Shown here: one piece after another, positions 18,501 through 50,105 of the stretch
Layout: every line of letters starts with the position of its first letter
How positions within the stretch are numbered: position 1 is the first letter of the stretch
From: Nymphaea colorata
Lineage: Eukaryota > Streptophyta > Magnoliopsida > Nymphaeales > Nymphaeaceae
Direction of reading: 5' to 3'
Assembly: GCF_008831285.2 (NCBI RefSeq)
Contig: NC_045142.1
Location: forward strand, 2,175,001-2,239,000
DNA length: 64,000 nt
Made by a program: the position numbers and the translations under genes
The notes under the pieces: generated by a model
Told to the model about the DNA's origin: nothing
Databases searched by the model: none
Seen by the model: the letters and a program-made list of their open reading frames with translations, nothing else

Positions 18501-19299
18501 GTGTATTGGAAGCTCTCTTTATAAGCATTGATACAGCACATGCATATGTCCGCATCTAGTGCAAGTCTGTTCATATGATAAATCACCTCTCAAATTGATC
18601 TTACATCTCTTTGATGATCTGAATGGGAAAGACCCACCATTCTATAAAGAGCCGAAGCTTCTACCAACCATTTGTATGCCTTTTTTATTATGCTTCAATT
18701 ATATATTATTAATACTCCTTTTGCAATAAAAGAGGTTTTATACTTATAGTTAAAGCAACTACTTTAGTAAAGATGGTGGTTCTCCTCAAAAGTACTACGT
18801 CATTAATACTCACAATGGCTGCCGTCCACCGTAATGAAGGGGCCACACAGATTTTAAATCTCTTCTTAAAGGCGATCATTGAAGATTATATAGTACTCTA
18901 ACAACTACCAATTATGTTTCTTTACTTCATAGAAGTTTACACAACCTTATTAACGAGATTCCTCACATTTGAATAAATGAATGGTCCCTTTTTGCATCTT
19001 TCGGCATTAGATTTCTTGTTCATCTTGTTCAGTTATATTTTAATGGTTGCGTAGTTTCAGATGGTTGAGTTATGGCGGTGGGGGCTTGTACATTGTTCTT
19101 CGTTGCATTTCCCGAAATTGATCTTGTTTTGCCCGTTGGTTGCTGGTGCGTTACAAAACCACGTCGGCCTCTTTCCTTGCTTTAATTCATCGCCTCCGTT
19201 GCCGTGTCGCTGTCAGTCTTAAGAGAGATTAAACAGAGGTTTCCGGCCAGTCGCCGGAGTTTTTTTGTTGAAATTCCTTGATTTTTGTTAGAAGAATAG
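15552..19299. other. Intergenic DNA after HRLI: 3' UTR, unrecognised short ORFs, decayed repeats
   Basis: The first ~300 bases are probably the HRLI 3' UTR. A minus-strand open frame at 15,952-16,185 (77 aa, hydrophilic, K/E/D-rich) and overlapping frames on both strands at 17,050-17,292 match no family I know, so I do not call them genes. The 17,578-17,750 stretch has a GGGCAATTGCCCA palindrome near one end and GGCTCTACCCCTGCC at the other. It resembles hAT-like ends seen elsewhere in the window. A 93-bp tandem pair is listed separately. Confidence 0.45.
17847..18033. repeat. 93-bp tandem duplication (two units)
   Basis: GAACCAAGATGTTGGC... and GAACCAAAATCTTGGC... head two adjacent 93-bp units. 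Both end in CCAAGGTCAAAAGCGTG. They differ at roughly one base in eight, so the duplication is old. No coding content. Confidence 0.8.
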
Positions 19300-20340
19300 T
19301 TTTTTTTGCATAGGTGGAGTCCGAAATTTTTTGCCGGAATTATAGTTTTAAAATTTTAATAGGGACCAAAATATAATTTTTCAAAATTTTTATATTTTGT
19401 TAGTAGAATCGAATTATAGTTTTAAAATTTTAAGAAGGATCAAACTATAGTTTTTCAAAATTTTTTATATAAGTCAAATTGAAATTTTAAAAATTTACAT
19501 GTAAATTTTTTATTTATATTTTAAATCTGAAAAGGGCCATGGCCCCCACTACCCCCTTGTTTTTTTTGCATAGGTGAAGTCCGAATTTTTTTGTTGGCAT
19601 TATAGTTTTAAAATTTTAGTAGGGACCAAAATATAATTTTTCAAAATTTTTATATTTTGTTAGTAGAATCGAATTATAGTTATAAAATTTTAAGAAGGAC
19701 CAAAATATAGTTTTTCAAAATTTTTTATATAAGTCAAATTGAAATTTTAAAAATTTACATGTAAATTTTTTATTTATATTTTAAATCTGAAAAGGGCCAT
19801 GGCCCCACTACCCCTCTTGTTTTTTTTTTGCATAGGTGAAGTCCGAATTTTTTTGCTGACATTATAGTTTTAAAATTTTAGTAGGGACCAAAATATAATT
19901 TTTCAAAATTTTTATATTTTGTTAGTAGAATCGAATTATAGTTTAAAATTTTAAGAAGGACCAAAATATAGTTTTTCAAAATTTTTTATATAAGTCAAAT
20001 TGAAATTTTAAAAATTTACATGTAAATTTTTTATTTATTTTTTAAATCTGAAAAGGGCCATGGCCCCCACTACCCCCCTTGTTTTTTTTGCATAGGTGAA
20101 GTCCGAATTTTTTTGCTGGCATTATAGTTTTAAAATTTTAGTAGGGACCAAAATATATTTTTTCAAAATTTTTATATTTTGCTAGTAGAATCGAATTATA
20201 GTTTAAAATTTTAAGAAGGACCAAAATATAGTTTTTCAAAATTTTTTATATAAGTCAAATTAAAATTTTAAAAATTTACATATAAATTGTTTATTTTATT
20301 TTTAAATCTGAAAAGGGCCATGCCCCGACTAACCCCTTGA
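19300..20340. repeat. Four-unit ~260-bp tandem array with GGGCCATGGCCC palindrome
   Basis: Landmark GCATAGGTG(G/A)AGTCCGAA occurs at about 19,308, 19,568, 19,830 and 20,090, so the period is 260-262 bp. Each unit carries two variants of ATTATAGTTTTAAAATTTTA...ACCAAAATATA, a TTACATGTAAA palindrome, then AAAAGGGCCATGGCCCC and a C-rich end. The last unit is more diverged (GGGCCATGCCCC) and runs into TTGACTCCACCCC. Read on the minus strand, that terminus resembles plant hAT ends (GGGGTGGAGTCAAGGGG). Probably an amplified transposon terminus. Confidence 0.9.
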
Positions 20341-29685: not shown

Positions 29686-31292
29686 GCCAACTGCAAGAGA
29701 AGAACAAAGTGAGGGATAATTCAATATAAGTTTCTCACACTCATCATAATTTGTCTTAATTCGTAATGGTTATAAAAAAGAAAATTGCATTAAATGATGA
29801 TCCATGAGCTCCGTTGGTGTTCATGTAGCAGTTTCCTCGACGTGGATGACATATCGTTAATCTTCAATAAATTTAAGATTAGGTCTTCTCACTCTAATCT
29901 TCAATCAGATATTTTTTTCAATGAAAAAAAAGAAAGTAAAATGATGATTTCAAATGCAGATCTTAAGTACAACGTTGAGCTCAAGATCTTTAGTTTCATA
30001 AACCATATATTTTACCATAAATTTTTTACCACATCACCAAAAAACATGTCACATCAGATTCTTGAATCTCAAATCTTAAGTATGCTCCATTGCAAAGTAG
30101 TTTATATATTCTGAATAAGCCTCTACTTGCCTGAAAGAAATTAACACACAAAACTTTTGAATAAGTTACATAAAATAACTGATGTGATGCATAAATTTTC
30201 TTATTTACAAATTTTCATCAAAACTTTTGAATAAGTTACATAAAATAACTGATGTGATGCATAAATTTTCTTACTTACAAATTTTCATTTATTTATATGC
30301 AGGGAGCCCAACAAAGTTTAAGATTTAAACCATTAATGCTCCTTAGCTAGAATTTATGACTCTAAAAAAATAATGCCAAGTTTTTTTCCTTTGTTTCTGA
30401 ATGCAATATATGCCTGAAGGAACATCGTAAACTCTTACAAACTCATTCATAATCAGATTGAAAAACTATAAAGGTTAAAATTTAAATGGGCTCTATGTTT
30501 AAAAGTGTTGTCCTTGTAAGGCATGGTTTTACATACTAAATATTAATTTGTTTCTGCAAGGTTTTACCTGCATTTGAATTAATATTTTTTACCATGCGCA
30601 TTCAAAGAGGTCGTGCAGTACCTTCGGCGTTCCGCCGTCCACTGTTTGCGTTTGCAGTGCCAAGCCCGAGATTGACCAATTCAAACACACTAGTATGTCT
30701 CGGGTTGCAAGCGGGAAGAATACAAGAAGCATAGCAGCTCGAGACACTGACTGGCTGCACACCTAATATCCTATGTGGATGGGGAAAACGTGAGGGCTTA
30801 GACTCTCTTGTTGAGTGGTATTGGATGGTAAAGTTTATTACGCAGGTCAGGTCCGCGTTTGTATTCAATCCAATGAGATACCATATGATTGGACTCAGAT
30901 TCAAAATTGAATTTGGACCCAGTTATGGAAACGAAATTTGATCTGAAGTTCACACGCAAATTGGTCTGATCCATATCAGATCTCAGTCAGATATGACTCG
31001 TATGCAGATCAGATAATGAAGTTACATGCCAGAAATGAATCTTATTGGTAGTTGGATCTGAATTTCCTTACTGGCAGTTGCCAGAGGAGTGGATTTCAGA
31101 GATTCAAATTTAGAGAGAGAGAGAGATTTGAGCAATGATATCTAGTAGAATTAAATTAAGTGCAACTGTATATTTGGTATGCGTGGTTGTGTTGGATTCA
31201 ACTTTCCAAGAGTGCTCTACAGGAGAGCCAACAAATCAATTTACCCCATACATTTACATTTCAATTTAACCAAAAGCTCTACAAGAGTGCAT
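29686..31292. other. Intergenic DNA before the large inverted repeat
   Basis: AT-rich, with no gene supported. A minus-strand frame at 30,602-30,904 (100 aa) has no recognisable domain. GGATCAGATC-type words are frequent at 30,870-31,080. AAGAGTGC occurs twice close to the left border of the inverted repeat (about 31,208 and 31,283). Confidence 0.4.
30150..30289. repeat. 70-bp perfect-to-near-perfect tandem pair
   Basis: AAAACTTTTGAATAAGTTAC starts at 30,150 and again at 30,220. The two 70-bp units differ at only about one base (TTATTT vs TTACTT), so this is a recent tandem duplication. Confidence 0.9.
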
Positions 31293-32061
31293 TAATGCGA
31301 CCATATTTTTCCATCGAAACCTGGGTTTTATTGGCACATGTAGTTTTCCAAATACGATTGCTCACTTATGTCACCAATGTTTTCGTACTTGTATCCTACA
31401 ATAAATCATACATATATATTAGTAGTCTAGACGGCTTTAACTAGTAAGTCCTTATCTCTACACACGAGGCATGAACATATGGTTAGAATGGCATATAATT
31501 CCAGTTGATTCTCTTGTATCCTTTTGAAACATATGTATTGGGGTTTCCATCCCTAGCACATGGAAACACTTGTTAGTGTGAGGATGGGAATTGGGACTAT
31601 GGTGGAAGAACACACGTAAGCACGAGCGTATGCATATGCAGACAAAACACACAGGAATGAGACATATGTGATTCGAAGTTTTCTGAGAAAGATATTTGGG
31701 GTTGTGGTGCAATGAAAAGCGATATACATGCAAGTAGTCCACCTTTCCTTACAAGAGTTGTTGGAAGAGCAACTCTTCGCTATATATCATCCTTTTCTAA
31801 TGCTGCATTAGAGCAACTTGGCAGCAGGAGTTGTATTCCTAGCTTATCTTATGCAAGCGATATACTGTCATCCAAAACAGCAACTTTTGGAAGATGGTAG
31901 GTTCCCTGTGCCCGTAACCAGCTTCTCTTTCTTTTGGGGTTTGCATGCCACGACATTTGCCCACACCGGACCACAAAGTATCTCCAAAGGTTGCTCCTCG
32001 CATTAATTTGGAATGATCAACTTTTGGGGTATGGTTAGTGGCATACCCGTGCATGAAAAGT
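31293..32061 (+). repeat. Inverted-repeat left arm
   Basis: Begins TAATGCGACCATATTTTTCC and ends CATGAAAAGT. Pairs base for base, without indels, with 33,160-32,392. No recognisable protein family in any frame. Hypothetical frames such as 31,458-31,742 minus (94 aa) recur unchanged in the other arm. Confidence 0.95.
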
Positions 32062-32133
32062 AACATTATATGAAGAAGCCAACATGGATTGCAATCACGA
32101 TTTAATGCTCCAAAAAGAGATGGGGAAATACAT

Positions 32134-32374
32134 ATAGGACGTTCTCGTTGCACCGTGTGCACCTTACAAACACCTCCTTCTCGTCCAAGACCTTGCAACT
32201 CCCACTGCAATCCAAACAAGGAATGAACCTCAAGTCCCCGCAGGCCTCACAAGGCTCGCCGGAATTCTCACCCTTTGGGCCGACGGTGTCCAGCATCTCC
32301 CCAAGTTCCCCACTTTCGTTGAGGTCTACCATCTCCTCCACGCCACCAACGTACCTCCCTTTGATGAACATCCT
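32134..32374 (-). pseudogene. Captured C-terminal fragment of a plant glutaredoxin-like (GRX/DnaJ-type Cys-rich) gene
   Basis: The minus strand encodes RMFIKGRYVGGVEEMVDLNE, then a segment with CEACGDLRFIPCLDCSGSCK and C-x2-CNENVL. Plant proteins with a glutaredoxin domain followed by a four-CxxC tail (the Arabidopsis At5g39865/At3g28850 type) end in just this order: VFVKGRYVGG-EE, then CEACGD-RFVPC-CSGS-KV, then C-CNENGL. Only about 80 residues remain. The active-site part of the glutaredoxin domain is absent, an in-frame stop lies just upstream (about 32,386), and after NENVL the reading runs into unrelated sequence. The frame is undamaged inside the fragment, which suggests recent capture. 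It lies wholly in the spacer of the inverted repeat and is antisense to the plus-strand reading of the element. Confidence 0.85.
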
Positions 32375-32391
32375 TTTCCTGCATTAGAGCA

Positions 32392-33160
32392 ACTTTTCAT
32401 GCAAGGGTATGCCACTAACCATACCCCAAAAGTTGATCATTCCAAATTAATGCGAGGAGCAACTTTTGGAGATACTTTGTGGCCCGGTGTGGGCAAATGT
32501 CGTGGCATGCAAACCCCAAAAGAAAGAGAAGCTGGTTACGGGCACAGGGAACCTACCATCTTCCAAAAGTTGCTGTTTTGGATGACAGTATATCGCTTGC
32601 ATAAGATAAGCTAGGAATACAACTCCTGCTGCCAAGTTGCTCTAATGCAGCATTAGAAAAGGATGATATATAGCGAAGAGTTGCTCTTCCAACAACTCTT
32701 GTAAGGAAAGGTGGACTACTTGCATGTATATCGCTTTTCATTGCACCACAACCCCAAATATCTTTCTCAGAAAACTTCGAATCACATATGTCTCATTCCT
32801 GTGTGTTTTGTCTGCATATGCATACGCTCGTGCTTACGTGTGTTCTTCCACCATAGTCCCAATTCCCATCCTCACACTAACAAGTGTTTCCATGTGCTAG
32901 GGATGGAAACCCCAATACATATGTTTCAAAAGGATACAAGAGAATCAACTGGAATTATATGCCATTCTAACCATATGTTCATGCCTCGTGTGTAGAGATA
33001 AGGACTTACTAGTTAAAGCCGTCTAGACTACTAATATATATGTATGATTTATTGTAGGATACAAGTACGAAAACATTGGTGACATGAGTGAGCAATCGTA
33101 TTTGGAAAACTACATGTGCCAATAAAACCCAGGTTTCGATGGAAAAATATGGTCGCATTA
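32392..33160 (-). repeat. Inverted-repeat right arm
   Basis: Reverse complement of 31,293-32,061. Just inside its inner border, TGCATTAGAGCAACTT (32,380-32,395) repeats a sequence found in the left arm at 31,803-31,818, a possible microhomology used when the structure formed. Confidence 0.95.
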
Positions 33161-34200
33161 CACTTTCCATCCAAAACAGGATAAAAAAATTGGTTAATTC
33201 TTTGTATCAGATAAATTTTATCAAACATGAGGCTTTGATATGCAATATAATCATAATTGATTAGGCTGATAATGCCTGATCTCATACTCGTATAACTCTT
33301 TCTTTTTTATAAACAACCATATTCGTAAACAGAGTTTCACACAAAAAAAGAAAAAAAAATTCAAATAGCGCGGGAGCGGGAGATGGCTGATCCAGCGCTC
33401 GGAGAGGAAGGTCGGTAAACGGGTAACCGTTTCAGCCAAATCTCAGCTGAATCGAATGGGGGAACGAAGAAGATGAAGCAGCTGCAGCGGCATCAACCTC
33501 TGCTGAAGATGAAGATGCAGGGCGGAGGATGCTGCCCGCGACCGCCATTGGACGAGGCTAAGGTATATTACCTCAAGTGGAATACCTTAGTCCCCTCAAC
33601 TTCTGTTCGATCGATTGAAGGAAGGCTGCGCCTTTTGCCCTTCAATTAGTGCTCCTTTTCCTGCATTTGGTAAAATCATCACCTATTTAACTCCACCAGA
33701 GAAGCATCGTGTGCAGAAGACTACCAGACACTCCCAAGGAGAAGACCATCAGAAGAGAAAGCTGGGTAATGGAACGCGCAGCAGGAGAAGGGTCGGGGCA
33801 GGAGGGCTGGTGGAGCTGCATTTCCTCCCGCCTGCTAGCCATGGCAGCAGCCATCCCATCCTTTCTCATGGCCTGGCTCCTCAGCCGCGGCGTCCAGCCT
33901 CCATACCAGCGACACAACCTATCAGTTTCGGTGTCGCACACGCCAAGGGGCATGTCCGTTCGCTTTGCCGTCCAAAGCTCCTTCAGAACCTGATCGTGAT
34001 CCTAGTCTCAGTAGGCGTGTTTTTGTCTTAGGTGTTTATCTTTGAATTTCTTTTTCTAATGCTCTGTGCTCCTCTGTAAGCTCCTAACTTCTCGTTAGGA
34101 GTCCTGCTGTTAGTTATGTATAATGTTCCTTCCTTGTGTAAGCTCCTAAGTTCTTGTTTGGAGTCCTGTTTTTAGTTATATATATACAATGTTCCTTCCT
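33161..34200. other. GC-rich island with overlapping unrecognised open frames
   Basis: From about 33,360 to 34,010 the GC content rises well above the surroundings, and open frames overlap on both strands. The plus strand has a 59-codon frame from ATG about 33,473 (opens MKQLQRHQPLLKMKMQGGGC), a 138-codon frame at 33,615-34,031 with a non-ATG start, and another ending near 33,993. The minus strand has 33,687-33,953. No product is recognisable. It could be the first exons of an unknown gene or a gene fragment left by a transposon. From 34,030 the DNA reads like a 3' end, with GCTCCTAA(C/G)TTCT...GGAGTCCTG repeated at about 34,078 and 34,140. Confidence 0.35.
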
Positions 34201-34700
34201 TCTCTCTCTCTCTCTCTCTCTATGGATGTCTGAATTAAAAACTAAAAGGAGAAGAGGAGCAGAGAGTTCGAGACATGAGAAAAACTGAGCAACGTGATAA
34301 TGAAGTACGGATTGTGTGAACAATTGAATTCGGCAGAAGTTGGTAAAATTGAATTCTGCTGAAGTTGATAAAAATACAGCAAGGATATTGCTGACCTACC
34401 TCTTCTTCTATGGCTGTTAATATTACAAGTTTCCTCATGCCTGTTGCTAGTCGTACAAAATTAAGAGCTGATTTTCAGATGTAATCTCTTTTTTAGGTTC
34501 AAATTTTTGTTGGTCTTATGTTAATGTTTATTTTCCTCTCTCTCTCTCTTTCTCTCCCTCTATGGATGTCTGAATTAAAAACTAAAAGGAGAAGAGCAGA
34601 GAGCTTGAGACATGAGGAAAACAGAGCAACGTGATAATGAAGAATGGATTGCGTGAACAAAAAACTAAAGGGAGAAGAAGAGCAGAGAGTTCAAACAAGA
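34201..34700. repeat. CT microsatellite and duplicated ~110-bp block
   Basis: A (CT)n run (34,201-34,221) is followed by ATGGATGTCTGAATTAAAAA, GAAGAG and AGCAACGTGATAATGAAG. The same order recurs after a second CT run at 34,537-34,640. A third partial copy (ACTAAAGGGAGAAGAAGAGC) starts near 34,662. Non-coding. Confidence 0.8.
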
Positions 34701-37700
34701 GGGAACCAGATTGAAAAACATGCAAGTAAAATGGCAAATCATAGGATTTCTCTTCTTTTTTATTTCCTTCATCTACGAACACCTCACAGAGGGCAGGGCG
34801 TAAGGAAAAGCTGACCACAATGGTTTCCTTCAGAACAGGGACTTTTGAGCCAATTCTATATGACATTGATAAAGGGGTCGTAAGAAGGTGCAGTAACATT
34901 AATAGATGCGGGCACTTCAGATCACACATTTGTGCTCCTATTTTTACGTCAAATGGATGGAAAAAATGATCCAGTTGTTGCATTCAAATCAGATACCACT
35001 GCCCTGGTTTTCTTTTCTTACTGTTTTATGATCCTGAACTCATTTAATAACCACTATTTTTCATATTGATTAAGCTTGATGAAGTTAGTATTCACTTTAT
35101 TTCTATAATCATTAGCAGATCAATTTCTGAATTCTCTTAGTTACTGTTTTCTTTTCCTCTGCCAAATGACACTCAGACTGTAATAGAGTATTTTTCATGT
35201 TCGATCAACACAGCTGAACAACATCTTTTACGCTGCTTTGGGTGATTAAAAACCTTTGGAACCTACCAGCAAATGGAAAAGCATGGAGGAGGCGATCTAT
35301 GTGAGCAAAAGCAGGCAAATCGAAAGTTGGGAAACAAATTTTAGAAAAGGAAGCTAGCCTACATATGACTATCGTGTCAGAGATAACATTACATCAACCA
35401 ACTTAATGAATGATTATAAACACCAAGGAGAAAAAACAAAGCAAAATCTCTTACTGTCAACTATCTAACAAACTACGAATGATATTAAACACCAAGTAGA
35501 AAAAACAAAGGAAGACCTCTTACTATCAACTATCTAACCAACTTAAAGGAATAATGATAAACACCAACTAGAAAAAAACAGAGGAGCTGTCTGGTACATG
35601 GTGTATTTATAAGCTGTTTTAGTCAAGTGGAAATTGGTAATACCGAAGCAAATCATAAGTTCATAACTGACCCATGTCGAGCAATCAATGGCCAGTCACG
35701 TCCTATAGACCCTTATTGTCGAACTTTGAAGATAAAGAGTCTTCATTTCCATAAAATAGAGGATAGCATCGTAAGGGGCTCTACATGGATCCCTTCACTA
35801 ACTTGGTGTAGAAGCAAAAAAAAATTTCTCTCTACACTGTGCACCACTGCTTTACTTACTACTGCCACTGCTTCTCAAACTAAAAAAGCTCTTCACCTAC
35901 CCTGCTATCTATCCATTTGCCATCAGGCAGTGCAGCGTAAAACAACATGGACAGAATGCAGTCTGTGAACAAAGGTTTAGGAGCTGCCCTCCCTGAAGCC
36001 ATTGCCACCAAAGAGAATACAGCTGAAGGAAGCCATCTGTAACAAATTCAAGTAAGCTGTTTCCAACAACGCTAGTCATAATGAGAAGGTTACAACAGAG
36101 AGTTCCAATTCACCATTTAAAACATGGAAGGTTTCAGATGCTGGAGATGGGAAAGGAAGATGGGTGTTAAAGAAAAACAGAGAGTTATGCTCACCCATGG
36201 ATCACTTATTCAGTCAGCCAAGTGCCAACCTAAAGTTGCGCAAAGTAATAAAATATGGCCAGATGATTATTGGTCAAGAGTAGCCCAGAATTGAATTCTG
36301 CTAAAGTTGATAAAAATCCAGCAAGGATATTGCTGACCTACCTCTTCTTCTATGGCTGTTAATATTACAAGTTTCCACACGCCTGTTGTCTGTTGATGAT
36401 ATGAGAATCTCTTTTATCATCTTTCCCCTTTTCTTTTTAATGAATAAAAATCATGTGCTTAACAATAGACTTGTACTCACACTGCCATTGTATAGTAAGT
36501 CAATTTTCTTACTGCCACAGGCCATAGTTTCTAATGGACCCCTTTAATTATATCGGTTCCATGATATGCATAGTAAGAAGAAAAATTATAACCATGAACC
36601 TCACATAATAATGCGTCCATAATCACTGGTGAAGGTCTCGTGTTTTCAGCTGCTTCTATTCTGTCCATTATGCGTTGTTGAGTTCCAGATGTTGATTAAT
36701 CTAAAGGCACATGAAAACTGAGAAAGAGAGAAGGATGCCGATTTTGATATCAACCTACAGCTGAGGATTTTCTGTAATCTAGATCTTAGGCTGTTCACAG
36801 AGGATCATTTTTGGAAGCATGTTTTGCTGAACATTAGCCACATACTTGGTCACATTTTTCTCTATTGCTATGAGACGTGACATTGAGAAGGTTCACTTCA
36901 TTCTTGCACTGTTATTCAACAATATGAGGACAGTTTGCACCTAAGTACCTTTTTCAATATTCCTGGTTGTTCACAGTTCAACCACATTTTACTAACTTTT
37001 TTAAGTTCAGGTTCTGAAAAACAAAGAGTATTCAGAAGAAGTGCTTTCTAGCACTCCTCTGCGTCGAATTGGAAAGCTCAAGAAATTTCTCCTTTGGTAG
37101 CATTCCTCTGCTTACCAGCTGCTTCTTACATTACTGGCCAAGTCATTTGCAGTCAATGGAGAAATGACAACCAATGGCTTCTTTCCTTTGATGGACTAAA
37201 GTCTGAAGTTCTTTACAACTAGATACTCTTGGAACATAATGGCACCATCTTTCTAAAAGAAAAACATGGTATTCTTGGAATACAACGTTCTTATCAAACA
37301 CCTTTTAAGGCAAACTTCCTTCTACTCAAATAACACATTTTATTTCTTTTCATGTGAATTTTCAGAGTTAATGAGAAGAGATAGACGATGAGATATTTGT
37401 CCTAATAGTTGGTTATTAACATGTGTGTGTGTGTGTATAACCAGTTGCTTTCACTCTTATACAACATCTTCAGGTGCATCATAATGAACAACTTTAGTAG
37501 ATTAATGATTAATAATAAGACATTTAGCCTTTTAGGTTAGATTCCCATCAACTTTGTTGCATTTTTAGATTAACAAAGGAAGATCTCTTACTGTCAACTA
37601 TCTAACTGACTTAAGGAATAGTGATAAACACCAACTAGAAAAAAAAACAGAGGGGCTATCTGGTACATGGTGTACTTATAAGCTGTTTTAGCCAATTGGA

Positions 37701-38260
37701 AATTGGTAATACCGAAGCAAATCATAAGTTCATAACTGACCTATGTCAAGCAATCATTGACCAGTCACATGTCCTATAGACCCTTATCGTCAAACTTTGA
37801 AGAAAAGAGTCTTCATTGCCATAAAATAGAGGCTATGTTGAATAGCATCTTGAGGGGCTCAACATGGATCCCTTCAGTGACTTGGTACAGAAGCAAAGAC
37901 ACTGCCTGTAAATTGCACACATCACTGCTTTGCTTACTATTACCACTGTTTCTCAAGCTAAAAGCTGAACCTGGCCTGCCATCTATCCATTTGCCATCAA
38001 GCAGTGCACTGTAAACAACATGGACAGGACGCAGTCTGTGAAGTGTGAACAGAGGTTTAGGAGCTGCCCTGAAGCCATTGCCACCAAAAAGAATACAGGT
38101 GAAGGAAGCCATCTGGAACAAATTCAAGGAAGCTGTTTCCAAGAAAGCCAGTCATGACGAGAAGGTTACAACAAGAGTTTCAATTCACCATTTAAAACAT
38201 AGAAGGTTTCAGATGTCAGAGATGGGAAAGGAATATGGGAGCAGCATTGGATATTTTAGT
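34350..38260. repeat. Region of nested direct duplications (two ~2-kb halves)
   Basis: 34,350-34,445 matches 36,294-36,390 (GTTGATAAAAAT-CAGCAAGG and following ~90 bp). 35,500-36,160 matches 37,570-38,240 (CTGGTACATGGTGTA, CCGAAGCAAATCATAAGTTC, GGCTC-ACATGGATCCCTTCA, GAAGCCATTGCCACCAAA). Both pairs are offset by about 2 kb, as if one ~2-kb unit was duplicated in tandem and then diverged or was replaced in the middle. Within it, 35,408-35,585 is a ~75-bp minirepeat (AAACACCAA-TAGAAAAAAC ... CTCTTACTGTCAACTATC). A minus-strand frame at 37,813-38,142 (109 aa) is broken by stops in the sister copy, so I do not call it a gene. Confidence 0.7.
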
Positions 38261-38928
38261 TAGACATTCTTTTCTATAAACTTTGTCTTCCTCTCTGGAC
38301 TCTTGTAACTATGAAAGTCCTGGTAATAGACCCACCAAAGAATATGAGCAACTCTTTTCTCCTAAAATTTCTTTCGCAAGTTCTTGTAGAAAGGCAGTCA
38401 TACTATAGTTTATATAATGCTGAAAATGGAACCAACCACATGACATAGCCCAGTGGCTTACATACTCTGAGTTGTTTTCCTTTGTAATGTCTTCAGTTGA
38501 TTGGCTGGATATGTTATTACACTTCAGAAAATACTTTATACATCTTATACTCAATCACGGAGATGCAAATTACATGATAAAAGATCCCAGTAGTGATTGG
38601 ATATTTTTTCCTGAAACTTGTGCTTAATATTAATAGATACAAATGCACTTCCTCTTGGTCTTCTCTAAAGTCTGAAGTACATCTGGATCTTGCTTATTGG
38701 CATGTACCTCATAAATGATCACACAAGCATAAACCAATATTGCCAAGCAGCAACTATATCCAGAATTCCATCAGCATATACAATTTCAGCTTCAAGTTAT
38801 TGGGGGAAAAAAGTGAATTGAACAACAAAAACCCTCGAGGAATGGGAAAGAAAACACAAAGACTGTGAAATAGTTGTCCACTTTACTGTGCATACTTATG
38901 CATGAAGGCACCTAATGGTAAGAGCACA
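38261..38928. other. Intergenic DNA, no feature seen
   Basis: Mixed AT-rich sequence between the 2-kb duplications and the large direct repeat. No supportable gene, RNA or clear element. Confidence 0.4.
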
Positions 38929-41900
38929 ATCATGATCAAGATCTCAAGAAATTTAAATGCTCTATTATTTTTTACGAATTCATCAATTCAGGACAAAGGA
39001 AATGCTGATGGTGAATCTCAACCAACTACAAAGCATGAATCTTGATGAAATGCAAATGATGCAAAATAAAGGCTCAAAAAGAGAAGACAAACATATTTAC
39101 GTGGTTCCATGGTTTGAATCACCTAAGGACATGAGAAAGGTACTTCCACCATGCCATACCATGTGACAAGCTTCTTCGTAATATAGTGGAGTGGCAACTC
39201 AATCCTTTCCTTTATTTTAGGAGAGCTGGTTACAAGATTTCCATGATGGTCATCAACAAATCTTTTAACATTAGTATTTGAGATTTTTTTCTAGAATTAT
39301 CCGCACTCCAAGGTCATCAGATTGACTTGCCTCTTTCTCGTTGAAAGCATCCATCAGCTTCCTCAATTAATGCATGTTTTCTAGGCAACATGACTGACTG
39401 AGTAATGATTTCATGTGCAATCTGCAGAGCCAACTAGATTTTATCTCTCAATATCTTTTCTTCCCATGATTTCCTTCTCAATTTGTTGATCCATTTGGAT
39501 TGCATCTCCGAATACCTTTTCAACCAAATCTAGTTAGATTCATAGATTGATTTGGATTATTGGACTTTATATGTTCAAAGAACTTTTTAGACTTCACAAT
39601 CTCGAATGGTTCATAATTAATGGATTTAGAAATTCACACTTTTCAAAAATGACGAACTTAATTTCCTTAACTGCTAGATGTGAGCAGAAATAAGTGGGGG
39701 GTTACCTATCTCTTGAATGCTATTAATGTAAATCACAATTTACTATTCTTAATGGATCACATTAGCAGAGCTTGAGGGAGCTAGGGTTGTTGGAGCACAA
39801 GCCAAGCTTGGGTAGCCGAGGTTGAACTCAACTACTGTCCTTGACCCAAGAATAGAGCTTCAGATTGTTTTGGGCAAAGCTTCATCTGAGTGCTGAACAC
39901 CTATTTATATATGAAAACTTTTGACAACAATTGATGGCTAACTTGGAAAGATATACTTGTCTCTGTTTTAAAATATGGGATAAAAGAAATGGGAAATGGG
40001 ACCCGACCTCTCGGTACGAGCTTCGGCTGTACCTGGTGCCCTCACCAAGAGTGACGAAAGAAAGGGTTGAGCAATGCCTAAATATTAACTATGTATTTCA
40101 ATCTAGACCTAGAAATGCCTATATGAATGCATGCTGATTTGAAATAGGCTTGTTTTAGGAAAATGATGCAATAAGCAAGTAGAAAAACACATGATTGGAA
40201 AACCCGGGTTTTAGAAATGCACATAATATTCTTAGGAAAACCCTTTCATCATGGGGTCCATGCGTGCATCCTAAATCCACCTAATGCATGAGTTTCAAAA
40301 AGCGATGGCATAAAAAATATGTTTGAAAAGAGATGTAAAGATGGTTAAACCTAGATTTTAAAAGAAATAAAGTCTGGGATCAGGTAAAGGGGCATTGAAG
40401 TCCAGTCCTAGTTGGAACACAGTTCTGATCTAGGCATGTTGAAGTTGGGTCTTGCTTCAGAGTTGGATCCAGGGTCAATTCTAAGGGTCGACTCTGGCAG
40501 AGTAAGGTTCGAAACGAAGAGGAAAACTAATTATAAATTCAAAATATAAATTTAATAGGAACTTTGAAATTCATTTTGAAAACAAAAGCATTTAATTGAA
40601 AAGGAATGCAAGAACAATTATTGCATTTTAAATGGGACAACCTAACTAACTAGAGGAAAAATGAAAGTTTCTTTGGCTTAAAGTGGATAATCAGGGAATC
40701 TTTGAAAATTCATTTTCAAGTAGAAAATACATTTTGGGTTTGAGAACAAGAGAAATACATTTTCTAGGTTTTGAGAATTTTGGGTTTCTACAGAAACGAT
40801 AGAAAATAGGTTCTGCTAAAACAAAGCGAGAAGCAAACAAATGAACACGATTTCTAGAAAATTTTGGAGGTAGCTGTGGGACATGATCTGAAGCTTTACA
40901 GGGACATATAGATCATGAAAAGCTAAGCTTGGAACATAAAGTTACAACTTCTGTAACACAAGCTAATTTTTGGTTCTCTCTGAAAGCAAAAAGTAGAATT
41001 CAAAAGGGGCGAATGGTTGCCTCTAATACTAAAGGGGACTAATGGCTTTAGTTTGGAGAGAAACAAATGGAACTTCTAAAAGCTGTGGGAAATAAAGTTC
41101 CAACAATGAAATGTACGAAAATAAGCAAGACACTATACTTAACATGCGATGAAAGCATTAGAAGCAAAGGAAGTGACAGTAAAAAGACAAAAGCAGAATA
41201 CACTAACATGTAGTTTGGCAACAAGAACACTTTGTGTGTATCCCATAAATCTATCCCAAAAATTAAAGTAGGTGCATTGAACAATAGTTCTAGTCTTTGA
41301 TGAACTTGTCTCAATCTTTTGATCAGTAGATTAATGAGACAACACAGTTTATTTGCTATCAAATGACCCATAAAGAGACTGAACAACACATTACATGTGA
41401 TTCAAATGCATGAAATGCGATATCAAACATCTAAATGCATGAATTTCCACTCTTTAATCAATGAAACACAAGAACAAGGTCTAGAATTACATCTTTCACA
41501 GTCCTAGCCCTAAGGTGGAAGGTCAAGGTTCATGCAATAGTGTTCTATAGATAACTATAGAAATAGTCAGCAAGGTGTGGCAAATTTGGAAGACTGATTG
41601 GAACAAAATTTGGATTTAAACAAAGAATGTCTAGAGATTTACAGCGAACTATTATATGCCTAAATTGGAGCTCTAAGCTAAGAGTTATGGCTTCCTAAAG
41701 TTAAACCAATTTCAGGCCTACTTCTGCTCGGGTCTTCATAAATGCAGAAAGTAGTAAGACTTTGAAGGGGCAAACAGGGGGCCCATAAGCTGGATAGACC
41801 CAGATCTTGTCTTCAAATTGGAGAAAATTTGGTCTAGAAGAGTAAAGTTAAAAGCCCAGCATTTGCAGGAGGAGCTAGAGAAATTGTGGAGTTGCCATGA

Positions 41901-42360
41901 AACAAATCCCACTTCTGCTCCAGTCTTCCTGAATGCAGAAAATAGTCAAAATTTGAAGAGGCAAATGGGGGGCTCAATGGGCTCGTTTTTCGACTAATTG
42001 GGTCTTAGGATACTAGAGTTGGATCGTTTTAGATATAATCATGAAATTGGAGAAAATTTGGGCTAGAAAGAGTACTCAAGGTCCAGCATTTGCAAAAGGA
42101 ACTAGATGAATTAAGGAGTTGTCATGAAACAAATCCTACTTTTGCCCGGGTCTTCCTAAATGTAGAAAGCAAGTAGTCAAAGTTTGAAAGACAAATGGGG
42201 GACTCAATGGCCTGGTTTTCTTGACAACTTGGGTTGGAGGAAACTAGAATTGGATCGGTTCAAATTTTATCTTTAAAAAATTTGGGCTAGAAAGAGTAAA
42301 GTTAAAGATCCAGCATTTGTAGAAGGTGCTAGAGGAATTGCATTATTGTCATGAAATGGA
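38929..42360 (+). repeat. Large direct repeat, copy 1 (3.4 kb; partner 45,756-50,105)
   Basis: Begins ATCATGATCAAG-CTCAAGAAATTT and matches the 45.8-kb copy colinearly through ACGTGGTTCCATGG, GGACATGAGAAAGGTACTTC, GCTGTACCTGGTGCCCTCAC, ACAGAAACGATAGAAAATAGG and AATAGTCAGCAAGGTGTGGC. At 40,730 it lacks an 839-bp segment present in copy 2 (47,575-48,413). It ends in three ~227-bp tandem monomers (about 41,740-42,350; GGAGCTAGA-GAATT-TGGAGTTGTCATGAAAC). Length and the TTACGTGGTTC motif recall retrotransposon LTRs, but no primer-binding site, polypurine tract, integrase or flanking duplication was found. Confidence 0.75.
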
Positions 42361-42409: not shown

Positions 42410-43330
42410 GGAGGCACTAAGAGAAGAAGAATACTGGTCCTAGAAATCTAGGGCATTGTGGTTGAAATTAGAAGACGAGAACAGTGGTTTTTTCCATAGC
42501 ATGGTGAAGAAGAGTAGGTTGAAGAAGGATATTTCTAGTATTGAGATAGATGAAGGAAGCTTTATAATTAAGAGAAAATTTAGTGGGCTTATTATGGACA
42601 TTTCAAGAAGTTTTATGAAAATCATGCTTCAGCAGGAATGCTTCCAAGCAATTCATGGGAAGGTCCGAACTTTTTGGGGCAAAGACTAATGGCACTTCAA
42701 GATAAAAAATTGTCTCTGAAACATTGGACTATAGTTGGTGAAGATGTCTCGAATGCAATAAGAGACTTTTTTATTAAGGCAAGTTGGTTAAAAACCTGGA
42801 GAAGAACCACTTTGTATTGGTTCCTACATCATAATCTCTCATTCATATCTCCAGCTGTAACCCTATAGCTTTAAGAATTAGTATTCTAAAATTCATTTAG
42901 TGGGATGATGGTCTCAATAATGAATGGATTGTTGGAAAAATTATCTCGGCGCACCAAGGACAAGGAGCTTTCTTGGCAAGTAGGAATAGTCATCATTCCT
43001 TTCTACCTGCACACAAAATGGTTCATTCATTGGCCAGAGGTAAGTCGTCAAGTGTATGTTCGAAAATAGATTTAACTAAAGCATATGATTATCTAAATTG
43101 GAATTTCCTGATTGCAAACATGAAGCATATGAGATTTCACATTGAATGGATTGGCAAGGTCATGACATGTGTGGAAAATGCTTTCTACAAAGTTCTCGTT
43201 AATGGGTAGAGGGGTAATTACTTCGAGAACAAACATGTATTGAAGTAAGAAGATCCCTTGTCTCCATACTTGTTTCTAATATTTATGAAATTTTTTTAGT
43301 AAAAGTTGCAGGATGCAACAAGGAAATTCA
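42410..43330 (+). pseudogene. Degenerate LINE (non-LTR retrotransposon) reverse-transcriptase remnant
   Basis: Conceptual frames on the plus strand read like plant L1-type LINE ORF2 in the right order: REEEYWS(stop)KSRALWLK..GFFHSM, IVGEDVSNAIRDFF, HQGQGAFL, VHSLARGKSSSVCSKIDLTK, AYDYLNWNFL, then after a stop DPLSPYLFLIFM. Family knowledge gives LW-KEGD-N-FFH upstream of the RT domain and K-D--KAYD--W as the RT motif. Here stops (for example at about 42,439 and 43,207) and frame changes break it, and the catalytic YADD segment and the endonuclease are missing. A truncated dead copy. It lies between the two large direct repeats. Confidence 0.85.
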
Positions 43331-43485: not shown

Positions 43486-45211
43486 TGACTGTTGCTTGTT
43501 GAAAAAAACTCTATTGATTAAACAAAGGTAGACTGGATACCTTTTAGATTTAGGTAGTCACTTTATATTTTTCTCACACATACACAAACACACACAGTTA
43601 GCCACATGCTTGCAGAAGGGGTTTGAAGAGCAGATGTTTAAGAAGTCTTGGCAGATGTTTAAGAAGCATAAAGCTCCAAAGCTAAGACCATGCATGAGAC
43701 ATTGAAGTGGTGCCCATAGGATTTGATCCGCGAGTGCCCGACACGATGGCTGAGGCCTTACCCACTACACGAACTGCCTCGGGAAACTCGAACCGCAGAT
43801 GATCAACCACTGGTGGCCTGTGATTGGCATGTTCACCCAATTCGCAATCACATCCAACAGTTCCTTTGAATGTGAGTTAGAGAAAGTGGGAAAGATGAGG
43901 GCATGCCATATTCTGACCTAGAAAGCTTGACATATATAGTGAAGTGTGGAGCAAAATTCCAAGGGAGTGAGTAGTGCTCTCGCTATTTGTAGTGGGGAGT
44001 TTGATTGGTTTGTCCATAATGTGAGGTAGTTGTCAAAATTTACTCCAATTTGGAAACAAGATCTGAGCTGATCCAACTCTAATATTCTGAGACCCAATTT
44101 GGCCGGAAAACTAGATGATTGAGCACCCCGTTTGCCCTTTCAAACTTTGACTGCTTTCTAAATTTAGGAATACCCGAGCAAAAGTAGGATTTGTTTCATG
44201 ACAACTCCTTAATTCATCTAGCTCCTTTTGCAAATTTTGGACCTTTAGTACTCTTTCTAGCCCAAATTTTCTCCAATTTGATGACTATATCTGAGCCGAT
44301 CCAACTCTAGTATTCTAAGACCCAATTTGTTGAAAAACCAACCCATTGAGCCCTCATTTGCCCCTTCAAACTTTGACTATTTTCAGCATTTAGGAAGACC
44401 AGAGCAGAAGTAGGATTTGTTTCATGACAACTCCACAATTCCTCTAGCTCCTTCTACAGATGCTGAGCTTTTAACTCTTCTCTTTCTAGCCCAAATTTTC
44501 TCCAATTTGAAGACAAGTTCTGAGACGATCCAGCTTTAGTACTCGGACCCAATTTGTTGGAAAACCAGCCATTGGACCCCCTTTTGCCCATTCAAAGTCT
44601 TACTACTTTATGCATTTATGAAGACACGAGCAGTGTCTTCATAAAGTGGGGTGCTTCATTTTTGTCCCTACCTCACATTATGGACAAACCAATCAAACTC
44701 CCCACTACAAATAGCGAGAGCACTACTCACTCCCTTGGAATTTTGCTCCACACTTCACTAAATATGTTAAGCTTTCTAGGTCAGAATATGGCATGCCCTC
44801 ATCTTTCCCACTTTCTCTAACTCACATTCAAAGGAACTGTTGGATGTGATTGCCAATTGGGTGAACATGCCAATCACAGGCCACCAAGTGGCTGATAATC
44901 CACAGTTTGAGTTTCCCGAGGCAGTTCGTGTAGTGGGTAAGGCCTCAGCCATCGTGTCGGGCACTCGCGGATCAAATCCTATGGGCACCACTTCAATGTC
45001 TCATGCACGGTCTTAGCTTTGGATCTTTATGCTTCTTAAACATCTGCCAAGACTTCTTAAACATCTGCTCTTCAAACCCCTTCTGCAAGCATGTGGCTAA
45101 GTGTGTGTGTTTGTGTATGTGTTAGAAAAATATAAAGTGACTACCTAAATCTAAAAGGTATCCAGTCTACCTTTGATTAATCAATAGAGTTTTTGTCAAC
45201 AAGCAACAATC
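43486..45211. repeat. Second foldback: ~540-bp inverted arms with ~630-bp loop
   Basis: Left arm about 43,486-44,029 and right arm about 44,669-45,211 are reverse complements with many substitutions and small indels, so this is older than the 31-33-kb foldback. Shared blocks include GTGTTTGTGTATGTGT, TTAAACATCTGCCAAGA, GGCTGAGGCCTTACCCACTAC, GAACTGTTGGATGTGATTG and CCACTACAAATAGCGAGAGC. Each arm holds a tRNA-like segment (box-B-like GGATCAAATCC, then ATGGGCACC). The loop holds about 2.7 inverted copies of the 227-bp monomer and a 13-bp perfect hairpin (about 44,615-44,646). Confidence 0.85.
44925..44990 (+). mobile_element. tRNA-like SINE head in the right arm (mirror copy 43,709-43,791 minus)
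   Basis: TTCGTGTAGTGGGTAAGG resembles a box-A region. GGATCAAATCC at 44,969-44,979 resembles box B. CTATGGGCACC follows as in the SINE copies at 28.3, 55.3 and 61.4 kb. The mirror copy is in the left arm on the minus strand. It is not a functional tRNA gene, since no proper acceptor stem closes it. Confidence 0.5.
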
Positions 45212-45755
45212 AGCAGAAGCAGGTTCGTTGGTACCTTCTTTTATGATGTTGCGTGCTTCCATGTGCTTCTGCTGATTCATCTCTTCTATCTGTGTGGTAG
45301 TATTCCACAGATTATCCATTTTTTGAAAAATGGGATCTTTGATGTTGTTTCTGCATGATGGTTCAGTTCCATAACATGGTTATGCTCTTTGACCACAAGA
45401 TCACATATTTGGTTTCCTTGGTTCTTACATATTTTGAGATCTTGTCTTGTATATTGCAGCATAAGGAAAAATCTTTTGGATTGTGCGAACCATCTACCGT
45501 GGCTTCGGCTCTCTCTTTGGTCAGTGGGATGATAATGGATCAACTTTTGAGGTGTTACGCTACTTTCCAATCACATTCCCAGTCGACTCTCAAGTGTCAA
45601 CTGGGAAACGAACGACTGGTTGCTGGGGTTCAACTCCAAATTTGAAATTTGGACACCAGGACATGCAAAAGTAATAGAAGCATACCATATCGTTTTTCAT
45701 TTCATAACAATTTTCAAGGCCCATTTGACTATGAGTACTGCCAAGTTTAAACTAA
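45212..45755. other. Spacer between foldback and large direct repeat copy 2
   Basis: About 540 bases with short frames on both strands (45,286-45,570 minus; 45,355-45,645 plus) and no recognisable family. It has no counterpart before copy 1 of the large repeat. Confidence 0.4.
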
Positions 45756-48700
45756 TCATGATCAAGGACTCAAGAAATTTGAATGCTCTATTTCTTTTTT
45801 ACGAATTCATCATATCAATTCAGGACAAAGAAAATGCAGATGGTGAATCTCAACCAACTACAGAGCAGGAATCTTGATGAAATGCAAATGATGCAAAATA
45901 AAGACTAAAAAAGAGAAGACAAACATATTTACGTGGTTCCATGGATTGAACCACCTAAGGACATGAGAAAGGTACTTCCACCATGCCATAACATGTGACA
46001 AGCTTTATTTCATAATATAGTGGAGTGCCAACTCAATCCTATCCTTTATTTTAGGAGAGCTGGTTACAAGATTTCCATGATGGTCATCAAAAAAATTTTT
46101 AACGTTAGTATTTGAGATTTTTTTTCTGGATTCATCGGCACTCCAAGGTCATCAAATTGACTTGCCTCTTTCTTGTTGAAAGCATTCATCAACTTCCTCA
46201 ATTAACACATGTTTTCTAGGCAACATGAACGATTGAATAATGATTTCATTTGCAATTTGCTAAGCCAACTAGATTTTATCTATTAATATCTTTTCTTCCC
46301 ATGATTTCCTACTCAATCTGTTGAGCCATCAGGTTCTCTGCCTTTTCAACCAAATCTAGTTGGATCCATAGATTGACTTGGACTATTGGACTTTATATGT
46401 TCAAAGAACGTTTTAGACTTCACAATCTCAAATGCTTCATAATTAATAGTTTTAGAAATTCACAATTTTCAAAAATGACAAACTTAATTTCCTTAACTGC
46501 TAGATGTGAGCAGAAATAAGTGGGGGGTTACCTATCTCTTGAATGCTATTAATGTAAATCACAATTTACTATTCTTAATGGATCACATTAGCTGAGCTTG
46601 AGGGAGCTAGGGTTGTTGGAGCACAAGTCAAGCTTGGGTAGCCGAGCTTGAACTCAACTACTTTCCTTGACCCAAGAATAGAGCTTCAGATTGTTTTGGG
46701 CAAAGCTTCATCTTGAGTGCTGAACACTTGTTTATATATGAAAACTTTTGACAGCAATTGATGGCTAACTTGGAAAGATATACTTGCCTCTGTTTTAAAA
46801 TATGAGATAATAAAGGAAATGGGAAATGGGACCCCACCTGTCGGTATGAGCTTCGGCTGTACCTGGTGCCCTCACCAGGAGTGACGAAAGGAAGGGTTGA
46901 GCAATGCCTAATATTAACTATGTGTTTTAATATAGACCTAGAAATGCCTATATGAATGCATGCTAATTTGAAAGAGGCTTGTTTTAGTAAAATGATGCAA
47001 TAAGCAAGTAGAAAAACACATGATTGTAAAACCCTATGTAAACTTCTAGGGTTTTACAAATGCACATAATATTCTTAGGAAAGCCCGTTCATCATGGGGT
47101 CCATGCATGCATCCTAAATCTACCTAATGCATGAGTTTCGGAAAGCGATGACATAAAAAACATGTTTGAAAAGAGATGTAAAGATGGTTAAACCTAGATT
47201 TTAAAAGAAATAAAGTCTGGGATCAGGCTAAAGGGGCATTAAAGTCCAGTCCTAATTGGAACACAGTTCTGATGTAGGCATGTTGAAGTTGGGTCCTGCT
47301 TCAAAGTTGGAACCAGGGTCAATTCTATGGGTCGACTTTGGCAGAGTAAGGTTCGAAACGAAGAGGAAAACTATCATAGATTCAAAATATAAATTTAGTA
47401 GGAACTTTGAAATTCATTTTGAAAACAAAAGCATTTAATTGAAAATGAATGCAAGAACAATTCTGGCATCTTAAAGGGGACAACCTAACAAACTAGAGGA
47501 TAAATGAAAGTTTCTTTGGCTTAAAGTGGATAATCAGGGAATCTTTGAAAATTCATCTTTAAGTAGAAAATAACATGGCCAAATCTAGGGAAAGCGGATG
47601 ATCAATTGACTTAAAGAGGGCAGTTAGTGGACTCACATCTGATTGAGCTAAAATAAAAGCGTAAATTGAGGGACAACCTAGCATTTTGATGTTTGAATGA
47701 ATAAAATTTAACTAGGAATTTATAAACTAGCTTGCATGCCTCTAAATTTGGAAAATAATGTGTTTCTTGGAGAAATTAAGAGGAGATGAACCACTTCAAT
47801 AAACTGAATTCATCTTTCTTGATTTTTGTTGGGATGTGCATTGTACTTAGCCTGAATGGAAAGTAATGTGTGTGTATAGCATGAATGCTATATTATGCAT
47901 GCCCATTTAATATAGATAGAAATATTTCAATAAAATACAAATAATATAATTTATATGGAAAATATAAAAATATAAACAAATGGACAATGGTGTACGCTTC
48001 CTCATATCACATCAATGACATGAAGTTGTTGCCAATTGCAACTTATGCTTCATTGAGCCACCAAAAGAACACAAATATGGCATAAAATGAAAAAAAAAAA
48101 CATGGTTCACAACGTCCATGTTTGTCTTCAACAAACTACGCAAACAAGGTCAAATGAAATGAAATTTGGGACATTGGCTCTGGACTGGCCCTAGGGTTGG
48201 TTGAAGATGATGGAATTCATATCGGTGTCCTAGAGTAAAAGAGAGAGAGTCAATAAGTTCATACAAGTTCTCGATTTCAAGGAATCTTAAAATTCAGGGC
48301 TTTGTAAAAAATAGGTTGCACTGTTTTGGGCAAACAACCTATCAAATGAGCTCGGAAATTAGACAAATAGTGTCTTTCTAAGGACACCTAAATCATAAAA
48401 ATTTAGACTTCTAGAACAAGAGAAATACATTTTCTAGGTTTTGAGAATTTTGGGTTTCTACAGAAACGATAGAAAATAGGTTCTGCTAAAACAAAGCGAG
48501 AAGCAAACAAATGAACACGATTTCTAGAAAATTTTGGAGGTAGCTGTGGGACATGATCTGAAGCTTTCCAGGGACATATAGATCATGAAAAGCTAAGCTT
48601 GGAACATGAAGTTACAACTTATGTAACACAAACTAATTTTTGGTTCTCTAGAATTCAAAAGGGGCGAATGGTTGCCTCTAATACTAAAGGGGACTAATGG

Positions 48701-50105
48701 CTTTAGTTTGGAGAGAAACAAATGGGACTTCTAAAAGCTGTGGGAAATCAAGTTCCAACAATGAAATGTATGCAAATATGCAAGGCACCATGCTTAACAA
48801 GCGATGAAAGCATTATAAGCAAAGAAAGTGATAGTAAAAAGACAAAAGCGGAGTACACTAACAATTTGTTTGGCAACAAAAACACTTTGTGTGTATCTCA
48901 TAAATCTATCCCAAAAATTAAAGTAGGTGCATTGAACAATAGTTCTAGCGTTTGATGAACTTGTCCCGATCTTTTGATCAGTAGATTAATAAAACAACAC
49001 AAAGTTATTTTGCTATCAAATGACCCATAAAGGGACTAAACAACACATTACATGTGCTTCAAATGCCATGAAATGTGATACTAAACATCCAAATGCATGA
49101 ATTGCCACTCTTTAATCAATGAAACACAAGAATAAGGTCTAGGATTATATCTTTCGCGGTCCTAGTCCTAAGGTGGAAGTTCAAGGTTCACACAATAAGT
49201 TTCTATAGATAACTACAGAAATAGTCAGCAAGGTGTGGCAAATTTGGAAGACTGTTTGGACTGAATTTTGGATTTAGATAGAGAATGTCAAGGGCTTTTC
49301 AACGAATTATTATATGCCTAAATCGGAGCTCTAAGCTAAGAGTTATTGCTTCCTAAAGCTAAACCAATTTCAGGCGTACTTCTGCTCGTGTCTTCATAAA
49401 TGCATAAAGTAGTAAGACTTTGATGGGCAAAAGGGGGCCCAATGGCTGGTTTTCCAACAAATTGGGTCTGAGGATACAAGAGCTGGATCGTCTCAGAACA
49501 TGTCTTCAAATTGGGGAAAATTTGGGCTTGAAAGAGAAGAGTTAGAAGCTCAGCATTTGTGGAAGGAGCTAGAGGAATTGTGGAGTTGTCATGAAACAAA
49601 TCCTACTTCTGCTCTGGTCTTCCTAAACGCTGAAAATAGTCAAAGTTTGAAGGGGCAAATGGGGGCTCAATGGGTTGGTTTTTCAACAAATTGGGTCTTA
49701 GAATACTAGACTTGGATCGGCTCAGATATATTCATCAAATTGGAGAAAATTTGGGCTAGAAAGAGTACTGAAGGCCCAGCATTTGCAAAAGGAGCTAGAT
49801 GGATGAATTAAGGAGTTGTCCTGAAACAAATCCTACTTTTGCCCGGGTCTTCCTAAATGTAGAAATCACTCAAAGTTTGAAAGGGCAAACAGGGTGCTCA
49901 ATCATCTAGTTTTCCGGCCAAATTGGGTCTCAGAATACTAGAGTTGGATCGGCTCAGATCTTGTTTTCAAGTTGGAGTAAATTTGGGGGTATAGTCAAAG
50001 GCCCAACATTTACTCAAGGAGCTAGATGGATTGCAGGGTTGTCATCAAATGGGTTCTACTTCTGCTCGGGTATGTGAAAAGTAGTCAAGTTTGAAAGACA
50101 AATGG
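45756..50105 (+). repeat. Large direct repeat, copy 2 (4.35 kb; partner 38,929-42,360)
   Basis: Colinear with copy 1 apart from the extra 47,575-48,413 segment, which starts near GGCCAAATCTAGGG. The sequence resumes at AACAAGAGAAATACATTTTC in both copies. It ends in three to four ~227-bp monomers (about 49,380-50,100) and then joins the dispersed repeat at 50,115. Open frames within it (48,722-48,955; 49,500-49,709) are products of the repeat and not conserved as coding. Confidence 0.75.

Follow-up and report, generated by a model that had tools for sequence, protein, structure and literature searches.

A long inverted repeat encloses a fragment of a glutaredoxin-family gene

The window, by which we mean the whole 64,000-base stretch of DNA that was analysed, contains two long arms in inverted orientation, each 769 nt in length, that are separated by a spacer of 330 nt. 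The parts of this locus and its immediate surroundings are given below in window coordinates.

31218 to 31292, plus strand: left flank beside the new junction, ending in ...AAGAGTGCAT, with AGTG in common with the inverted right flank plus three extra bases (CAT)
31293 to 32061, plus strand: left arm, read as the right arm copied in inverted orientation; a genome search found full-length matches at the two arms only
32062 to 32370, minus strand: captured 3' end of a glutaredoxin-family gene, with C13:7560060-7560139 and C13:7560264 onward as donor and 124 donor bases missing at 32140-32141
32369 to 32395, plus strand: 27-nt filler, read as copied from the arm interior in left-arm orientation
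32392 to 33160, plus strand: right arm, read as occupying its ancestral place, its inner end being read as the old break end
33161 to 33308, plus strand: right flank, homologous to locus L006 and in part to loci L020 and L021
33473 to 33562, plus strand: candidate first exon of a gene that is multicopy on C5, with the ATG kept, 3-base indels relative to loci L007 and L019, and a GT that follows

Base-by-base comparison of the arms finds 765 of 769 positions complementary, with no indel and four mismatches (31367/33086, 31970/32483, 31989/32464, and 32049/32404), which bears out the near-perfect geometry given in a preliminary description of this DNA. The identity breaks off at either end of the repeat, and a match of this quality is far above chance expectation. 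By BLAST self-comparison (dust on, E <= 1e-10, inverted pairs of at least 100 bp, arms within 3 kb), six inverted pairs are found in the window, namely the arm pair, a second long pair, and four pairs within a tandem-repeat region. The same procedure yields no inverted pairs in 19 other genome pieces totalling 173,006 bases (seven paralog or donor loci, and twelve 10-kb pieces taken at round coordinates of three contigs), a base rate that is only rough given a sample that is small, partly chosen, and exclusive of 19 short loci from the genome search.

Most of the spacer matches two pieces of C13:7560060-7560498 at 97-99% identity, and no other donor was among the matches listed for the spacer in the genome search. 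Positions 32062-32141 match C13:7560060-7560139 with one mismatch in 80 bases, and positions 32140-32374 match C13:7560264-7560498 at 97%. The last four bases of this donor match are better read as filler, which leaves six substitutions in 309 bases (1.9%) between the captured scrap and its donor. As counted by 21-mers, the spacer shares 166 of 310 with the donor locus.

An open frame of 93 codons on the minus strand of the scrap (32102-32383) matches the GRXCR1/2 C-terminal family of Pfam (PF23733, E 6.5e-17); two plus-strand frames of the spacer were also compared with Pfam and gave no match. The donor gene on C13 is one long minus-strand open frame of 366 codons from the first listed start, and its protein carries both a Glutaredoxin domain (PF00462, E 9.4e-11) and the GRXCR1/2 C-terminal domain (PF23733, E 1.8e-19). 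The preliminary description had spoken of a glutaredoxin exon fragment in the loop. The fragment is indeed present, on the minus strand and with the PF23733 match, but the word exon is loose, in that the donor is a single long open frame and the spacer copy also includes sequence located 3' of the gene.

The 124 donor bases that are missing from the spacer include the final residues of the gene and its stop codon. At first the gap looked like an intron, which would have suggested capture of a spliced cDNA or a retro-copy, but this possibility is out, given that the missing bases hold the last codons and the stop and lack GT-AG ends in any placement. Because the edges of the gap also share a CG microhomology, the gap is, judged from its sequence, a skip or deletion at the DNA level rather than a product of splicing.

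Copies of the arms elsewhere in the genome

The preliminary description had called for a search of the genome with the arms. This search, which scores best candidates only and could therefore let weak distant relatives escape, returned five matches: the two full-length arms and three partial matches on the same contig. No gene was identified at the three partial places, which are as follows:

C5:1915971-1916091, matching arm positions 7-127 at 88%
C5:1917786-1917998, matching arm positions 179-361 at 70%
C5:1967554-1967603, matching arm positions 179-228 at 90%

The inner half of the arm (408 bases), searched against the genome with E up to 10, gave three matches that are all local, namely the two arms and the filler. 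A genome-wide search for the 29-base arm terminus, with up to three mismatches allowed, found exactly two occurrences, one in each arm.

The right arm appears to be the older of the two

One paralogous stretch on the same contig, L006, which is located ~290 kb from the right arm, is informative about the history of the arms. Positions 33034-33234 of the window align without a break across the outer junction of the right arm (33160/33161) to L006 5092-4876 (C5:1915875-1916091, minus strand) at 82%, and positions 33235-33308 next match L006 4694-4621. At 31367/33086, the sole arm difference inside the stretches covered by L006, it is the right arm, not the left, that has the L006 sequence (ACTCAT). 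A corresponding 121-base query over the left junction (103 flank bases and 18 arm bases) found only itself in the genome. Because the L006 alignment crosses the right outer junction and none crosses the left, we take the right arm to be probably the ancestral one, of which the left arm would be an inverted copy, a reading for which the one paralog L006 serves as witness.

Other paralogous sequences are of less help. The match to a paralog of the left flank at C5:1.69 Mb ends at 31217 and so does not show what formerly lay to the left of the break. Loci L020 and L021 on C12 cover parts of 33155-33308 only, which amounts to at most the last six arm bases plus flank. These two loci are copies of a ~5-kb repeat, in opposite orientation as fetched, with transposase-like frames that are putatively hAT-like by their motif.

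Filler and joints

The short segment that links the scrap to the right arm, CATCCTTTTC+CTGCATTAGAGCAACTT, corresponds to arm positions 31788-31797 and 31803-31819, with five bases skipped between them. Its 17-nt exact match has no equal when the arm is Markov-shuffled 2000 times and searched on both strands, the longest match among the shuffles being 14 nt. Where the arm meets the donor sequence, two bases are identical, and past these BLAST aligns a further 20 bases into the arm, imperfectly. The joint between donor and filler shares CA, and that between filler and right arm shares ACTT. At the outer joint, read inward, the left flank AAGAGTG+CAT stands against the inverted right flank GGAAAGTG, after which both continue with TAATGCG, such that AGTG plus three bases mark the transition. 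The identities at the joints, which are candidate microhomologies, run to 2-4 bases each, and the outer joint has three extra bases as well.

Origin of the locus

A foldback scar is recognized by one arm that occupies its ancestral place while the other is a local inverted copy, and by templated filler at a joint. Here, L006 continues across the right junction and nothing does so across the left, and 27 nt of templated filler lie at a joint. We consider it probable that this locus is a scar left by a single event in which a double-strand break was repaired with template switching. The break would have lain immediately to the left of present-day position 32392. The resected strand of the right end might have folded back and copied 27 nt of the arm interior before switching to the 3' end of the C13 glutaredoxin-family gene, of which ~310 nt would have been copied and 124 nt skipped. 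After a switch back, copying would have proceeded through the whole 769-bp arm as far as 33160, giving the inverted copy, and its end would then have been connected to the left break end through AGTG plus three extra bases. The opposite direction also fits the joints, in which case the left end would have copied the right arm until running off at the break end at 32392. In either direction, the inner end of the right arm would represent the old break end. The polymerase may have been of the Pol delta or Pol theta type. We infer that a single event was involved, as well as the order and direction of its switches, and because the inner half of the arm lacks a paralog, the break end at 32392 is likewise a position that we can only infer. 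The shortness of the identities at the joints also speaks against this reading.

One observation counts against a single event. If all parts were of one age, then divergence between the scrap and its donor should not exceed that between the two arms, but the scrap differs from its donor at 6 of 309 positions (1.9%) and the arms differ at 4 of 769 (0.5%; Fisher p = 0.038). This difference hints at an older capture, at arms that were homogenized by gene conversion, or at a donor that was another allele or a paralog since lost. It is the main attraction of a two-step origin, wherein the glutaredoxin scrap was inserted first, as filler in a break next to the right arm, with the inverted arm arising later or the arms being homogenized afterwards by gene conversion. 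However, the p value is weak, the allele that was copied may differ from the present donor gene, and the filler itself is in left-arm orientation, which is simply explained by a single foldback path. We consider a two-step history unlikely. An assembly or read artefact, such as a chimeric palindromic read, might be suspected from the near identity of the arms. Yet a spacer from another contig with a piece missing and six substitutions, together with the filler and the four arm differences, would not be expected from a palindrome caused by a missed adapter, and we regard an artefact as extremely improbable.

The remaining alternative is that the locus represents a transposon, either single-copy or from an extinct family, with long terminal inverted repeats (a Mutator-like element or Pack-MULE, or a foldback element) that had captured a piece of a gene. 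The preliminary description had adopted a Pack-type frame, and long arms around a gene scrap do recall Pack-MULEs, for which a gene fragment between inverted arms is one of the features sought. For comparison, the inverted repeats of Mutator-like elements are typically 100-500 bp (PMC3310237). Moreover, GCATTA is present at both ends of the locus once the boundaries are shifted. However, no 9-11 bp target-site duplication exists at the exact boundaries, and with boundaries shifted by up to six bases the best results are the 6 bp exact match GCATTA and 7 bp with one mismatch. The latter is unremarkable when boundary pairs are drawn at random under the same rule: of 500 such pairs, 101 gave at least 7 and 123 gave at least 5. 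Among the best candidates scored, the genome search revealed no other full copy and no shared terminus, and the right arm continues into paralogous flank in L006, which is unexpected of a terminal inverted repeat. The absence of a target duplication, the absence of a family, and the colinearity with the flank disfavour a transposon origin, which we consider highly improbable, and the Pack-type frame is not supported. In relation to Pack-MULEs and long-TIR Mutator-like elements (PMC3310237), the likeness lies in the long inverted arms around a gene fragment, whereas the present locus is without a boundary target duplication or a family that was found, and one of its arms runs into old flank.

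Comparison with known break-repair systems

Inverted duplications made by template switching are already known, as is ectopic filler. Among the closest parallels to the proposed break-repair event are the foldback (snap-back) insertions at double-strand breaks in yeast, which one study describes as mostly ~5-34 bp, alongside insertions templated at distant loci (PMC11724301). These have microhomology, for which our locus offers candidates, and they resemble it in the short inverted copy near the break and the use of distant loci, whereas the final inverted copy in our case is 769 bp and combines local and distant templates. Human fold-back inverted duplications (PMC3907307) likewise have inverted and direct copies around a spacer and an occasional non-local insert, and they too show microhomology, to which the short joint identities here may correspond. 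They differ in having spacers of local single-copy DNA and in being large and terminal, whereas our locus is small and interstitial and has an ectopic spacer. A plant inverted duplication with unrelated DNA at its fusion point has been described in the Arabidopsis T-DNA line GK-909H04, which differs from our locus in that the duplication is ~20 kbp, is associated with T-DNA, and carries 652 bp of plastome DNA as its cargo (PMC8348815). Among the papers listed in searches of open-licence literature, the combination of parts seen at our locus was not found described as a natural plant hairpin locus.

Neighbouring features in the window

The sequence from 33305 to 39405 is multicopy on C5, with relatives at C5:1.93-2.0 Mb and 12.69-12.74 Mb. 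No Pfam domain was found in the possible first exon at 33473-33562 or in those neighbouring frames that were compared.

A second long inverted repeat (43486-44029 and 44668-45212) has ~545-bp arms that are 97% alike and a 638-bp spacer made of ~226-bp tandem repeats. In a partial relative at C5:8485.7-8486.3 kb, the outer left piece of this repeat adjoins the inner right piece. The second repeat is enclosed by a long direct duplication (~38982-42200 and ~45814-49800) whose copies are 83-96% alike in pieces and 6.8-7.7 kb apart, and the region around it looks to have been rearranged repeatedly. A reverse-transcriptase-like fragment at 42901-43209 (PF00078, E 6.3e-6, under the curated cut-off) is presumably LINE-like, as judged from its motif. 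Elsewhere in the window, a ~260-bp unit is present four times in tandem (19299-20339), with copies 2-4 being 94, 74, and 71% alike to the first.

Hairpin potential and possible function

If the repeat were transcribed, then the arms would form a duplex of ~765 bp and the gene scrap would form a single-stranded loop. Because the scrap would lie in this loop, direct dicing would yield small RNAs from the arms and not from glutaredoxin sequence. The suggestion in the preliminary description that the transcript could be a substrate for Dicer-like enzymes is thus retained for the long hairpin itself, provided that it is transcribed, but the duplex would consist of the arms, and the gene-derived part would be single-stranded.

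There are precedents for loci of this general form. In rice, a set of 1139 small RNAs is associated with a long inverted repeat whose arms are ~1.3 kb and whose spacer is 343 bp (PMC7649420). The long inverted repeats of rice, described there as probable small-RNA precursors, are similar to our locus in the proportions of arm and spacer, with the difference that small RNAs were measured in the rice case. An Arabidopsis inverted repeat gives rise to small RNAs that act in cis and in trans (PMC13213937). The inverted-duplication model of MIRNA origin (PMC3237417) also posits that a new hairpin locus emerges via inverted duplication. In that model the arms derive from the target gene, whereas here the gene-derived part forms the loop, and the partial matches of the arms pointed to no target gene.

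Perhaps the locus serves as a functional hairpin-RNA locus that is transcribed, is diced from its arms, and acts in cis or on paralogous flanks, which would be compatible with any of the origins discussed above. In addition to the rice and Arabidopsis precedents, 765 of 769 pairs would form, and a possible gene start is located ~310 bp downstream. However, few 21-mers of the left arm are shared with the seven loci compared (five with L006, one with L007, and none with L018-L022), and Rfam gave no match on 30500-34000 up to E = 1. We regard such a function as improbable. A more elaborate version would hold that one repair event made a new hairpin-RNA gene upstream of the multicopy C5 gene, that its arm small RNAs act in cis, and that secondary dicing of the loop links the scrap to silencing of the C13 glutaredoxin gene; we consider this very unlikely. 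Most likely, the locus has no present function, or at most it might act as a cis-acting hairpin or represent a structural polymorphism.

Implications for plant hairpin loci

The joints of this locus are unusually legible, in that an old arm, an inverted copy, ectopic cargo, a missing piece, and filler can all be read, and the kind of event is in itself ordinary. Long inverted repeats in plants are a possible source of hairpin RNAs, and their origin may have become obscured with age or been attributed to transposons. The present case suggests that template-switching break repair can, without a transposon, build a near-perfect, hairpin-capable locus of ~770 bp with a scrap of a gene in its loop.
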